From Gemmatimonadota bacterium (GTDB lineage: Bacteria > Gemmatimonadota > Gemmatimonadetes > Longimicrobiales > Gaopeijiaceae), in assembly GCA_026706635.1 (NCBI GenBank), contig JAPOYJ010000020.1, positions 1 through 64,000 on the forward strand: a stretch of DNA of 64,000 nt, given 5' to 3'. Shown in pieces: positions 1 through 9,397 of the stretch. The first letter of the stretch is position 1, and each line of letters starts with the position of its first letter. The notes under the pieces are model-generated. The model had not been told where the DNA came from, did not search any database, and was given only the letters and a program-made list of their open reading frames with translations. Position numbers and translations under genes: made by a program.

Positions 1-438
1 CCCTTGCCGGGCCGGCCATCGGCCGTCAACGCGACGATTCCCTGCCCCGACGGCGGCGACGCCACCTTCGAGGGAGAGGCGACCGCCGAGGTGCAGGCAG
101 GACAGGTTAGCGCGGAGGCGACTGGTTCGCTGGTCACCAGGAAGTGCGCGTTCCACGCTGACGGGTTGGGGGTCGTGGTGGACAGCGACGGTTTGGCGCA
201 GTCGATCCGAATCACACTGGTGCCCCGGCTTGCCAGCATCCTGCTCGTGGCGGAGTCCTCGGGCAGGGTGGGCTGGGTGGCCGGTCACCGCAGTGGCCGC
301 TGCGATCTGGCGAACAAGGTGACGAGCCGGATTTCCCTGGAAGCCCTGTGGGGTGGCGCTGCTCCCGTGGCGCGGGCCTCGGGGACGGTGTGCGGGCGCA
401 AGATCGACCATGAACTCCACTTGGTTACGGGGCCCTGA
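1..438 (+). CDS. Secreted cysteine-containing protein, C-terminal part (cut by window edge)
   Basis: The reading frame is open from the first base and ends at TGA 436-438, so the start lies outside the window. No known family is recognised. The sequence is a clear paralog of the minus-strand lipoprotein at 1419-2036: both share CPxGGxA, a central DGLxxxVD stretch, a SGxC segment and a C-terminal xCGxxI segment in the same order, so they have three conserved cysteines in common. By that kinship it is probably a secreted or lipid-anchored protein. The two paralogs point at each other across about 1 kb of DNA without a gene. Confidence 0.7.
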   Translation, partial: PLPGRPSAVNATIPCPDGGDATFEGEATAEVQAGQVSAEATGSLVTRKCAFHADGLGVVVDSDGLAQSIRITLVPRLASILLVAESSGRVGWVAGHRSGRCDLANKVTSRISLEALWGGAAPVARASGTVCGRKIDHELHLVTGP

Positions 439-684
439 CCCACCCGCGCCAGTCTCGACACCGCCTCCGTTCGCCACAGTGGGGGTGCACACCGGCGCAC
501 GTTGCACGGTGCCCGCGCCACGGCTTACGGCCGCACTGGAGTGTGAATACGACACGGGGGGCCAATGCACATTTCGGCGCTCCGGCGATGCACACCGGCC
601 AAGTCGCTTATCCGTTGGGGCGGCAACGTCTTGCGGCTCCGCCGCACGGCCTGCCGCGGCACGGGAGCCACCTGGGCGGTGGAG

Positions 685-773
685 GGGAGCGACCCCCCAG
701 TCCGAGGGCCTGGTACGGGTTCGGGACGAGGTGGAAATTCACACCTCGTCCCTGCCCTCCCTGGGTCGCTCCC
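685..773. other. Composite stem-loop element, copy A
   Basis: An 11-bp perfect outer inverted repeat (GGGAGCGACCC 685-695 with GGGTCGCTCCC 763-773) encloses a second perfect 11-bp hairpin (GGGACGAGGTG 723-733 with CACCTCGTCCC 742-752) whose 8-base loop is GAAATTCA. Copy B at 1103-1192 has the same plan, with the outer core AGCGACCC/GGGTCGCT and the same loop length. It is either a structured RNA or a DNA-level recombination or binding element; the strand cannot be told. Confidence 0.45.
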
Positions 774-1102
774 GCACCAACAATCCCTGGCGGGAAGGCC
801 GTCCGAACGCCGCTTCGGGACACGGCGGACCAACCCGATCCTGCTCCGGCTGCCGCCGTTGCCCAAATTGCCCGCGCCGCTCTCCTGCCAGCGTCCGCCC
901 GCGTGGTGGCTGGCTCCGGCCACCCACGGCGGTCTTGGCCCCGACACCGCGATCCGCGTCTGCCCCTACGCAGCGCTCCCCGTCCTGGTTTCACCTCCGT
1001 CCATGGAGACCGCCGGTTCGAGGCGGCGGTCCGGCTTGCCGAGAGTCGGGATGCCCCCACCGTGAGCGTCCTCCGGCCTTCCTGCAAAGGACTGCTGGAC
1101 CC

Positions 1103-1192
1103 GTAGCGACCCGCCGCGGCGGCTTGGGATGGAATTGCACATCCCAACCTCCGCAGATGCCACAACAGGCATCGAAAAAGGCGGGTCGCTAC
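1103..1192. other. Composite stem-loop element, copy B
   Basis: A 13-bp perfect outer inverted repeat (GTAGCGACCCGCC 1103-1115 with GGCGGGTCGCTAC 1180-1192) encloses an 8-bp hairpin (TTGGGATG 1124-1131 with CATCCCAA 1140-1147, loop GAATTGCA) and a small hairpin (ATGCC 1157-1161 with GGCAT 1168-1172). Compared with copy A, the inner stems differ by paired changes that keep base pairing, while the loop length and the GGAAWT start of the loop region are kept. Confidence 0.45.
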
Positions 1193-1418
1193 GACCACGT
1201 CCTCCGTTTCCGGCGCGGCACCGCCGCCCCGGAGGCCGTGGCGCAACCACAAGCCGGACAAGGACATGCGCGATCCCCGTCGTGCACGTCCGAACGGCGA
1301 TTCCGCGCACATCGACCACGATTTCACATGTGCGGCTCCATCCGGGCACGACTTCGCCGTTTCGGGACTTCGAGTAGCCTCCCGCGCCGTTCTCAAGCGT
1401 CGTCCCGGAAAGAACGGC

Positions 1419-2036
1419 TCAACCATCGCTCGCGACTCGAAGATCGGCTGCTTCTCCAGCGGTGACCGTGATGTCGAATTCGATGTCGTGGCCGCACATC
1501 TTCCCCTTGTAGCCGCCCGTCGCCTTGGGGTTCTCGGGATCCGACAAATCGACCGTCGCATCGAGCGGCAGGTCCATGGCGCATTCCCCCGACCGGTCCT
1601 CCAGTTGCCATTTGACCTTCCCTTCGATACCACCGCCCAAGACGACCGTCTCGAACGCGATGATATCGAAGGACATCCCGGTGCTCATGCTCGGGTCGCC
1701 GTCCACCGTGAACGCCAGTCCGTCGCCCGACACCTTGCAACCGGCCGGCGTGACCACCGCATTCAGCGCCAACTTGAGGGTGTCCCCGGCCTGCCTGGCG
1801 GTGGCCGTTCCGGCCACCCTTGCTTCGCCCCCGTGCGGGCAGGCGACCGTGGTATCCACGGAGCCGGAATCCACATCGTCATCGGGGAGGAGCTCCAAAC
1901 CCACCGTAATCGCCTTGAACAGGGCCAGGGCTTCGGCCTCGGTCAGCGTGTCCGGCGGGTCCACCGGATCCTCGCACCCCGCCAGCACGACGGCGAGCAC
2001 GAGTCCGGAGAGTGCGAGACGGGTTCTGCCTGACAT
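1419..2036 (-). CDS. Lipoprotein of unknown function, paralog of the protein at 1-438
   Basis: The product is 205 aa. The ATG at 2036 gives a short type II signal peptide with hydrophobic core LVLAVVLAGC; the lipobox cysteine is residue 21. A start nine codons upstream (2063) is possible but would put a charged stretch before the signal. Mature features shared with 1-438 are ACPHGGEA, DGLAFTVDGD, RSGEC and a C-terminal MCGHDI segment. A long upstream extension of the same frame has no coding character. No known domain is recognised, so the role is unknown; the anchor suggests the envelope. It is divergent from the recombinase at 2299. Confidence 0.75.
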   Translation of the reverse strand: MSGRTRLALSGLVLAVVLAGCEDPVDPPDTLTEAEALALFKAITVGLELLPDDDVDSGSVDTTVACPHGGEARVAGTATARQAGDTLKLALNAVVTPAGCKVSGDGLAFTVDGDPSMSTGMSFDIIAFETVVLGGGIEGKVKWQLEDRSGECAMDLPLDATVDLSDPENPKATGGYKGKMCGHDIEFDITVTAGEAADLRVASDG

Positions 2037-2298: not shown

Positions 2299-3459
2299 AT
2301 GGCACGCACGAAACGAAGTCGGCGCTCGTACGGCGCCGGCGAATGGGGCCGGAACCGGGTCAGGATCTTCCCGGACCCGAAGACCGGCATGTTCCAGATC
2401 GAGTGGCGGGAGAACGGGCGCAGGCTCACCCGGTCCCTCAAGCACCGTGACTGGCGGCGCGCGAAGCGGCAGGCGGACGAATTCGCCGCCGGGTTCGCCG
2501 GCCCGGAGATCGGGGGCGGGGCGGAAGCCAAGCCCGAGCCGCTCACTCTGGAGCGGCTCTTTGACATCTACGGTCAGGAGGTGACGCCCGCCAAGGGCGC
2601 TCACACGCGGCAGCACGACCGAACGTCGATGCGGATGTTCCTCGACCTCTTCGGACTGTCCCGCGACCCGGCGACCCTGTCTCAGAGGGACTGGGACCGA
2701 TTCATCCGGGAGCGCCGCGCGGGCAGGATCGGACCGAGTGGCAAGCCCGTGGCGGATCGGACGGTCGAATACGACCTGAAGTTCCTGATTGCCGTTTTCA
2801 ACTGGGCGGCGAAGTCCCGCGACGAGCGGGGCCGGTTGCTGCTCGACCGGAACCCGCTCAGAGGGCTCAGGACGCCCACGGAGAAGAACCCGAACCGGGT
2901 GGTGCTTGGCGAGGAGGAGTACCACGCGCTTCTGGAGGTGTCACTCCGGGTGGACTGGCGGTTCCATGTCGCCCTCGCGCTCGCGCACGAAACCGGCCAC
3001 CGGATCGGGGCCATCCGCCAGCTTCGGTGGCGCGACATCGACTTCGAGGGCGAAACCATCGTCTGGCGAGCCGAGCACGACAAGACCAGCTACCAGCACG
3101 TCACGCCGGTCACTCCAGAGGCCTTGGATGCCTTGAAGGAGGCGCGGAGTTGGAATCGCTCGACCGGGGATGCCCCGGTGCTGCCCGCGCCCCGGAATCC
3201 GTCGGCCTGCATGGGTGCCGCGTTGGCGCAGGGATGGTGGGACAGGGCCGAGCGGCTCGCGGGACTGGAGCCGAAGCCCGGACGGGGCTGGCACTCGCTG
3301 CGGCGCAAGTTCGCCTCCGACCTGATGGACCAGCCGTTGAAGGTGCTCTGCCAACTCGGCGGCTGGAAGACGGCCAAGACGGTGCTTCGGTGCTATCAGA
3401 GAGCCGACGAGGGACAGCTTCGGAAGGCTCTGGAAGACCGCCGCCGGGCTCGCGGCTGA
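2299..3459 (+). CDS. Tyrosine recombinase / phage-type integrase
   Basis: The 386-aa protein has an N-terminal DNA-binding part (about 15-75), a core-binding SAM-like domain (about 84-175) and a catalytic domain (about 205-370). The catalytic set is visible: R235 in the HRIGAIR box, K262, H332 and R335 in GWHSLRR, W356 in the place of the second histidine (LGGWKT) and the nucleophile Y366. Starting at ATG 2299 fits the GAGAGGA ribosome site at 2284-2290; the same frame is open far upstream but without coding character. Integrases catalyse site-specific strand exchange of mobile elements. No excisionase, other phage genes or tRNA target are seen nearby, so this looks solitary or like the remnant of an element. 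Confidence 0.9.
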   Translation: MARTKRSRRSYGAGEWGRNRVRIFPDPKTGMFQIEWRENGRRLTRSLKHRDWRRAKRQADEFAAGFAGPEIGGGAEAKPEPLTLERLFDIYGQEVTPAKGAHTRQHDRTSMRMFLDLFGLSRDPATLSQRDWDRFIRERRAGRIGPSGKPVADRTVEYDLKFLIAVFNWAAKSRDERGRLLLDRNPLRGLRTPTEKNPNRVVLGEEEYHALLEVSLRVDWRFHVALALAHETGHRIGAIRQLRWRDIDFEGETIVWRAEHDKTSYQHVTPVTPEALDALKEARSWNRSTGDAPVLPAPRNPSACMGAALAQGWWDRAERLAGLEPKPGRGWHSLRRKFASDLMDQPLKVLCQLGGWKTAKTVLRCYQRADEGQLRKALEDRRRARG

Positions 3460-3560
3460 GATCAAGACCGGCGGGAATCATTCAGCGGGAAATCGGGCTG
3501 TCGAACATGCAAACACATTCACCGCAACAAGATGCGAAACTACAACCACATGTCAGCCCG

Positions 3561-3609
3561 GCGCTTCGCCGCTCTCGGTGCTCGCGCGAGATTATCCACG
3601 GACTGCTAG
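3561..3609 (+). repeat. Dispersed CTAG-ended element, right end only
   Basis: This 49-bp stretch matches the right end of the element best seen at 8291-8543: the segment with CTCGGTGCTCGCGCGAG followed by ATTATCCACGGACTGCTAG. The left half is missing. A weak, AT-richer stretch just upstream (about 3506-3552) may be a decayed form of the 39-bp palindrome box. The copy lies between the recombinase and hicB. Confidence 0.75.
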
Positions 3610-3621
3610 ACGAGAACACTG

Positions 3622-8195: not shown

Positions 8196-8290
8196 CTCCC
8201 TTGCCTCTCGTTCATGGTTGCTGGCACCCCGTGGAGAACACCCCCCACGGTAGTCTACGTGTTCGGCTCGCGCACCCCCGTCCGCCCCAC

Positions 8291-8543
8291 CTAGCAGCCC
8301 GTGGACAAACCTCCCACGGCATTCGAGGCGCGCTGCATCCCCGCTGGACCGCTTCGCTCGCCTGTCCATACTGTAATGTATACATTACAATGTGTAATCC
8401 ATGACTTACAGTTCCTGTATCCCTGGCTTCGCTCTGTGTTGCTCCTTGGCCCGGTAGCGCTGCTACCAAGCCTTCGTCGCGCCTTGCCAGCGGGGCGCTT
8501 CGCGCCTCTCGGTGCTCGCGCGAGATTATCCACGGACTGCTAG
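8291..8543. repeat. Dispersed CTAG-ended element, most complete copy (253 bp)
   Basis: The ends are inverted: CTAGCAGCCCGTGGAC at the left and ATCCACGGACTGCTAG at the right. Inside, from left, are: a hairpin CCGTGG (8299-8304)/CCACGG (8314-8319); the box TGTAATGTATACATTACA (8372-8389, a perfect palindrome), ATG, TGTAATCCATGACTTACA (8393-8410); a hairpin GGTAGC-GCT-GCTACC (8453-8467); and the palindrome CTCGCGCGAG near the right end. It encodes no evident protein, though its minus strand is open outward from the box (MDRRAKRSSGDAA onward). CTAG at both ends may be a target duplication or part of the inverted repeat. It is MITE-like or REPIN-like; no transposase is visible. Confidence 0.85.
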
Positions 8544-9397
8544 CGCACATCCTGGCGGGAGATCGTCACCGTTGGTGTCAGCGAGGAGCGGGCGCCGCCC
8601 CGGAATATGCCCCGGGTGGGGGGAACATCGGCGTAGTCGCGGCCGACCGCCACGCGGATGTGGCGCTCGCCGGGGACGGAGTTGTTGGCGGGGTCCATTC
8701 CGACCCATCCAATTCCGGGAATCCGGCACTCCACCCAGGCATGGCTCTCCGACTCGGCTGTCCCCGCCGCCGCCGGTCCCAGGTAGCCCGATACGTATCG
8801 GCACGGCACTCCCCAGCCCCTGAGAATCGTCGCCATGACGTGCGCATAGTCCTGGCAGACGCCGCGTCCGCTCTCCAGGATAGCCTCGATCGGAGAGTCC
8901 ACGGCCGTGCTCCCGACGGCGTACTCGAAGGCCCGGTGCAGCTCTTCGCGCAGCTCGATCGCGGTGGCGAGCGGGTCGTCCGACGGCCCGAGGCCCCGAG
9001 CCTCGACGAAGCGCTCGAGCACCGGCGACGGGCGGGCGAAGCGGCTGGGCTGGAGCATGATTCCGACCTCGGGGTCCGCGGCCTCCCGCTTCAGCTCGAT
9101 CCAGCCGTCGGCACCCGCGGGCGCGGGAGGCCTGGCCGTCGATTGCACCTCCACGGTGCACAAGCTCCTCACCCAGAGGCGCCGGTGCGCACCCGGGCGG
9201 TCCAGGAAGTGGCCACGATTGCCGAACGGGCCGCGAAAGCCGAAGACGGGACCGACGGGATCGGTGTCGATGCGGAAGTCCAGCAGCACCTGGGCGCGAT
9301 CCCGCAGGGGGCAGAGGAAGAGCGTCATGACCGACGCCTCGACCGGCTCGGTGTAGCGGAACTCGAGCTGGTGCTCGATCGTGTGCCGGGCGATCAC
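8540..9397 (-). CDS. Transglutaminase-like cysteine protease-fold protein
   Basis: The 285-aa protein has an N-terminal beta domain (about 1-110) typical of bacterial transglutaminase-like proteins (HQLEFRYTEPV) and the catalytic triad C181 (GRGVCQDYAH), H219 (SHAWVE) and D235 (MDPANN). Such enzymes cleave or form amide bonds. GTG 9397 overlaps the stop of the upstream alpha-E gene (GTGA), so translation is coupled. It is the last gene of the ATP-grasp / alpha-E / transglutaminase operon. Its own TAG stop is provided by the end of the repeat at 8291-8543. Confidence 0.9.
   Translation of the reverse strand: MIARHTIEHQLEFRYTEPVEASVMTLFLCPLRDRAQVLLDFRIDTDPVGPVFGFRGPFGNRGHFLDRPGAHRRLWVRSLCTVEVQSTARPPAPAGADGWIELKREAADPEVGIMLQPSRFARPSPVLERFVEARGLGPSDDPLATAIELREELHRAFEYAVGSTAVDSPIEAILESGRGVCQDYAHVMATILRGWGVPCRYVSGYLGPAAAGTAESESHAWVECRIPGIGWVGMDPANNSVPGERHIRVAVGRDYADVPPTRGIFRGGARSSLTPTVTISRQDVR

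Follow-up and report, generated by a model that had tools for sequence, protein, structure and literature searches.

The two related stem-loops that face each other near the start of the window, by which we mean the whole 64,000-nucleotide stretch of DNA analyzed here, are probably two heterotypic mimics of a transfer origin (oriT) carried by an integrative mobilizable ("hitcher") element. On our best reading, the window holds most of this element, namely its recombinase, its lipoprotein cargo, and the two candidate oriT mimics; the window covers the right end of the element, and the left end lies outside, beyond the contig start. Each stem-loop (X) is the inner part of a non-coding unit of approximately 270 bp, here named U. 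The features are as follows.

4..438, + strand: lipA, a secreted-protein fragment, cargo; ~28% identical to lipB, with its start cut by the contig end
525..798, + strand: unit U, type A, candidate oriT arm 1; in clade A of the U tree, with a repeat/hairpin flank, stem-loop X, and a small hairpin
685..798, + strand: stem-loop X, type A; a three-way junction, then a TCCC-nnnn-GGGA hairpin and GGAAGG (R1, 57.5 bits)
799..1076, no strand: spacer between the arms, holding the 1008-1031 hairpin, which folds at chance level
1077..1335, - strand: unit U', type B, candidate oriT arm 2; 125.3 bits, typed in the U tree
1077..1193, - strand: stem-loop X, type B; from folding, family search, and covariation
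1195..1241, - strand: hairpin Y, with arms CCACGTCCTCCG and CGGAGGCCGTGG, outside X in U'; read from the sequence and conserved in the 78-unit alignment
1282..1335, - strand: outer GTGCAC/TGTGAAA-type repeats, putative protein-binding sites; conserved in 78 units
1419..2033, - strand: lipB, a predicted lipoprotein, cargo; lipobox LAGC in the sequence
2299..3459, + strand: tyrosine recombinase (integrase); PF00589, E 2e-15, and PHROG integrase
3548..3612, + strand: right part of a ~171-bp dispersed repeat, the integration target; from repeat comparison and junctions
3551..3562, + strand: right attachment core TGTCAGCCCGGC, the right end of the element; matching the core at both ends of loci L045, L047, and L063
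8290..8544, + strand: target repeat present again, carrying an insertion some tens of bp long; from repeat comparison

The lipA and lipB genes lie on either side of the U pair and point towards it; lipB has no Pfam family match.

A sequence-only reading had placed two composite stem-loops here, and both are present and far more stable than dinucleotide shuffles. Copy 1, at 685-773, has the perfect 11-bp outer stem that was claimed for it (GGGAGCGACCC/GGGTCGCTCCC), with an inner part formed by an 11-bp perfect stem and an 8-nt loop (GAAATTCA), and folds with an MFE of -59.2 kcal/mol (z -6.1). In copy 2 the perfect outer stem measures 14 bp (1102-1115/1180-1193) rather than the 13 bp first counted, the interior comprises a hairpin with the loop GAATTGCA and a second hairpin, GATGCC/GGCATC, and the MFE is -63.2 kcal/mol (z -10.1). 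Each copy is predicted to fold as a three-way junction. The two are inverted and convergent: read on the minus strand, copy 2 repeats the order of parts of plus-strand copy 1 (outer stem, two inner hairpins, outer stem), after which both carry a small hairpin, TCCY-nnnn-RGGA, ending in GGAAGG. The further hairpin reported at 1008-1031 exists, at a stability expected by chance (z -0.67; 41 of 200 shuffles at least equal it), and was dropped as a third copy.

Homologs outside this locus are abundant. The block recurs on two further contigs of the same genome at 88-89% identity, with partial copies elsewhere, and is present in 32 of the 98 genomes searched, mostly of the same genus; within the genus, a covariance model of 115 positions detects X in 20 of 23 genomes, at most 30 times in any one. 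In an alignment of 78 units, U also includes another hairpin (Y) and, further out, GTGCAC/TGTGAAA repeats. Across 84 copies of X, two-sided changes occur at 19 of its 26 base pairs, and the cells with such a change number 202, whereas shuffles give 53 +/- 7 and slid controls 9-40. Fitting of this alignment to the model biases the counts in its favor, but the margin is large. This covariation indicates selection on the inverted repeats and hairpins, as in an oriT. An Rfam search returned no family at the gathering score, and the sub-threshold matches at a relaxed threshold, mainly to microRNA models, were taken as chance; a tRNA/tmRNA search found none.

The position of U in conjugative elements (ICEs) suggests its function. 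In 17 fetched loci, within which VirD4 was traced by tblastn, a single U lies between a gene for a winged-helix protein of ~310 aa and the gene for the VirD4/TraG coupling protein. In 15 of the 17, the winged-helix gene ends 175-194 bp from U and U ends 10-15 bp from VirD4, while the divergent loci L173 and L172 have winged-helix gaps of 228 and 271 bp and VirD4 gaps of 156 and 116 bp, respectively; these sizes come from tblastn alignments extrapolated to the VirD4 start and may err by some bases. The ICE module reads VirB4-like (PF19044), VirB9 (PF03524), VirB10 (PF03743), VirB6 (PF04610), VirB8 (PF04335), winged-helix protein, and U, followed by VirD4 (PF12696, PF10412), VirB11 (PF00437), ArdC (PF08401), a 300-aa protein, and a tyrosine recombinase of the same family as that at 2299-3459 of the window. 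A site beside the coupling-protein gene is a usual location for an oriT, and U, being non-coding and beside that gene in a conjugative relative, occupies the oriT position. The window unit at 525..798 is itself ~75% identical to the single U of an ICE fragment (L011, 4663-4935), which lies between the winged-helix and VirD4 genes.

The element in the window also has its own integrase and attachment sites, as in an integrative mobilizable element. A core, TGCC(A/G)GCCCGGC, occurs at both element ends inside a ~171-bp dispersed repeat in L045, L047, and L063, where both junctions were read (only the right junction lies in the window), and intact ~171-bp repeats adjoin the element in L045. Integration by the recombinase is supported by these junctions. 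Both L045 and the visible part of the window element encode only cargo and recombinase, with no secretion channel of their own. The links to mobility and to the recombinase drawn in the sequence-only reading are correct: homologous recombinase genes in many genomes have this block upstream of them. The stem-loops do not serve as crossover sites, however, because the element end and its 12-bp core lie ~90 bp downstream of the recombinase gene.

The ~171-bp repeat is rich in palindromes and occurs singly or in tandem arrays (window 8290-8544; L045 2992-3461 and 8598-8997). In a different branch of the recombinase (L105, L107, L109, L111), right ends run into CGTCCGCCGGACGG-like sequence, which contains codons for PPDGR. 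These targets look like beta-propeller genes, and some elements carry beta-propeller cargo; integration into beta-propeller genes might swap gene parts.

The arrangement seen in the window, a convergent U pair followed by a recombinase gene without transfer genes, is shared by many relatives, often with secreted or lipoprotein cargo; the place and strand of U' upstream of the recombinase gene are likewise repeated in many of them. The distance from arm to arm ranges from 103 to 1579 bp in the relatives. Among the best 150 hits in the genus, 15 of 19 neighboring copies less than 2.5 kb apart are convergent, a count that is alone in being free of the choice of loci, many of which were retrieved for the pairs that they contain. 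The U tree, built from 94 units, divides into two groups (support 1.0), each of which includes ICE units, as does subclade b2 of group B. Of 27 convergent pairs, the tree includes both arms of 25, every one of them heterotypic, mostly A with B, with types assigned from a single midpoint-rooted FastTree tree of ~280-nt sequences. No same-type pair was observed, compared to a mean of 10.1 after shuffling of arms, and zero never arose in 200,000 tries; this result is not a probability and overstates independence, because the pairs share ancestry. ICE units and pair arms are mixed in seven disjoint clades with support of at least 0.87, and therefore arms were exchanged with ICE lineages several times. 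A winged-helix gene lies behind one or both arms in some pairs (L056, L061, L068, L113), and behind each arm in L061 and L113.

Other genes also adjoin U copies. IS110-like transposase genes do so repeatedly (L067, L070, L080), and a BrnT/BrnA-like toxin-antitoxin pair directly adjoins the U pair of L064 (3366-4026); both were named from sequence.

We propose the following mechanism, in which recognition, nicking, and export are steps that we infer. The recombinase would excise the element as a circle, and the transfer proteins of a co-resident ICE would recognize and nick whichever U matches their own type. One strand would then be exported through the VirD4 protein and type IV secretion channel of the ICE, and in the recipient the recombinase would insert the circle into a copy of the ~171-bp repeat. 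Possession of two U types would widen the range of helpers, while their placement on opposite strands would prevent the DNA deletion that would result if a relaxase took the second site for an end point on the same strand.

Four other explanations of U were considered. It is unlikely that U is a cis-regulatory RNA, serving as the VirD4 5' leader with its last hairpin hiding the ribosome-binding site, and that small elements carry it as a decoy or relic. In 15 of 17 ICE loci, X does end 10-15 bp short of the VirD4 start, and this spacing, like the GGAAGG at the end of X, would also suit a translation leader, yet the pairing and GGAAGG are kept even in pair arms and solo copies. Of 17 ICE copies of X, 16 have the start of an open frame of at least 100 aa no more than 30 nt away; such a frame occurs at only 12 of 55 pair arms, 2 of 25 solo copies, and neither of the two window arms. 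In the inner hairpins, wobble pairs are more frequent than A-C mismatches (67 versus 20), whereas the outer stem, unlike that of an RNA, has 15 A-C mismatches against 7 wobble pairs. A leader also leaves the convergent heterotypic pairing unexplained. Because frames are rare behind pair arms and A-C mismatches outnumber wobble pairs in the outer stem, a DNA-level role of X fits better, although X could have an additional RNA role in the ICEs. The structured non-coding RNA offered by the sequence-only reading could act as a VirD4 leader in ICEs but cannot account for the window arms, as no gene lies directly behind either of them.

The remaining explanations act at the DNA level and appear more improbable. 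That U and U' serve as the inverted terminal repeats of a small transposable unit, ~0.8-2 kb long including cargo and located within or next to the recombinase element, is very doubtful: several loci have convergent inverted arms with cargo between them, but transposon ends evolve together, whereas the arms differ in type in all 25 typed pairs and have separate histories, single U copies sit at one fixed ICE position, and no transposase regularly lies between the arms. The same evidence disposes of the earlier suggestion that the stem-loops are the paired ends of a small mobile unit, in the sense of simple terminal repeats, since the two arms differ in sequence type and each main type is also present as a single copy in ICEs. 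Slightly less probable again is an integron-like recombination or cassette site through which the tyrosine recombinase captures cargo between or beside the arms. Its appeal lies in the inner hairpins with ~8-nt loops between inverted arms, the adjacent recombinase, and the cargo that varies between copies; however, the crossover core is at the element ends and not at U, and the recombinase scores 17.7 bits against an integron-integrase model with a cut-off of 265. With the IntI-type score failing and the crossover core elsewhere, we rejected an integron identity. Least probable is that an extrachromosomal form of the element uses U as its replication origin or as a T-shaped terminal structure; both arms are T-shaped and inverted, with outer repeat motifs, but U in the ICEs adjoins the coupling-protein gene, where we recognized no replication protein.

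If the units are oriT mimics, a relaxase would be expected to act on them. The ICE contigs G006:C13, G008:C288, G016:C44, and G010:C35 have no match to the PF03432 relaxase, and PF13814 gave nothing above the cut-off on ICE contigs. The winged-helix and 300-aa ICE proteins have no family match, and a plasmid collection contained no match for either protein or for the block. The AlphaFold model of the winged-helix protein is fairly confident (pLDDT 82) and shows a winged helix followed by a domain ordered alpha-beta-beta-beta-alpha-beta, while that of the 300-aa protein is poor (pLDDT 59). In this predicted model, the C-terminal order could be taken to resemble PD-(D/E)XK folds, as in MobC-type relaxases; this relaxase-like reading stays a guess, because fold searches matched only the winged helix of the protein. 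For the two proteins together, fold searches returned mostly winged-helix regulators and no relaxase, which is not evidence of absence. We tentatively suggest, as a possibility somewhat short of even, a new Gemmatimonadota system of ICEs and hitchers with an undescribed class of relaxase, in which the winged-helix protein would be a type-specific relaxase or specificity factor and small elements would swap one of two opposite-strand oriTs, tracking the ICE types of the host population. A recombinase of the same family also occurs without U beside a relaxase gene matching PF03432 (L161, 1774-3363), in a mobilizable element with its own relaxase.

The named relatives are metagenome-assembled Gemmatimonadota (Longimicrobiales, BD2-11) and a few bins labeled Gammaproteobacteria or Acidobacteria; many of the host samples are taken to be sponge-derived, and the host genus may be Candidatus Palauibacter. 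The bins labeled Gammaproteobacteria and Acidobacteria contain the same recombinase, mostly with U or a winged-helix gene (L085, L106, L107, L113, L117), reflecting either cross-phylum transfer or misbinning. The sequence-and-structure model of U picks out likely oriTs and mobilizable elements in genomes in which searches for relaxases fail to find them; the analysis also yields a set of ICEs without a recognized relaxase.

The principle of oriT mimicry is already known, and we found no published description of this lineage, candidate oriT, or ICE. Like the mobilizable genomic islands MGIVflInd1 and SGI1, the elements described here combine an integrase and cargo with a candidate helper-like oriT and show no transfer machinery of their own. 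Islands of that kind are not known to carry the oriT of more than a single helper type, whereas the elements here carry two U types. Mimicry of oriT by mobilizable genomic islands is cited in PMC11389934. Streptococcal IMEs (PMC5357655) share a small size, a tyrosine integrase (in most IMEs), and dependence on the secretion channel of a helper, which is presumed here; they differ in encoding a relaxase, often with a coupling protein, neither of which is encoded by the visible window element.

The closest pattern is that of staphylococcal plasmids with two oriTs, which always lie on opposite strands and usually differ in subfamily (O'Brien et al. 2015, PMC4652767); the explanation proposed there is that a relaxase would cause deletions between copies on the same strand. 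Because the small elements match this pattern, we read their arms as two oriT mimics for two helper types. If this is correct, chromosomal elements in a phylum with few cultured members have independently arrived at the rule of two oriTs, on opposite strands and of different types; such an independent origin would indicate that selection generally favors access to more helpers without self-deletion. As with the oriT mimics of the pWBG749 family on these staphylococcal plasmids (PMC4652767; follow-up study, PMC8136818), structured candidate transfer origins are found on elements without transfer genes, in several subtypes matching distinct conjugative relatives. The pWBG749 system, however, involves plasmids of Gram-positive hosts and known specificity proteins (SmpO), while the elements here are chromosomal integrative elements of uncultured Gemmatimonadota, with a different structure and with convergent arms 0.1-1.6 kb apart.
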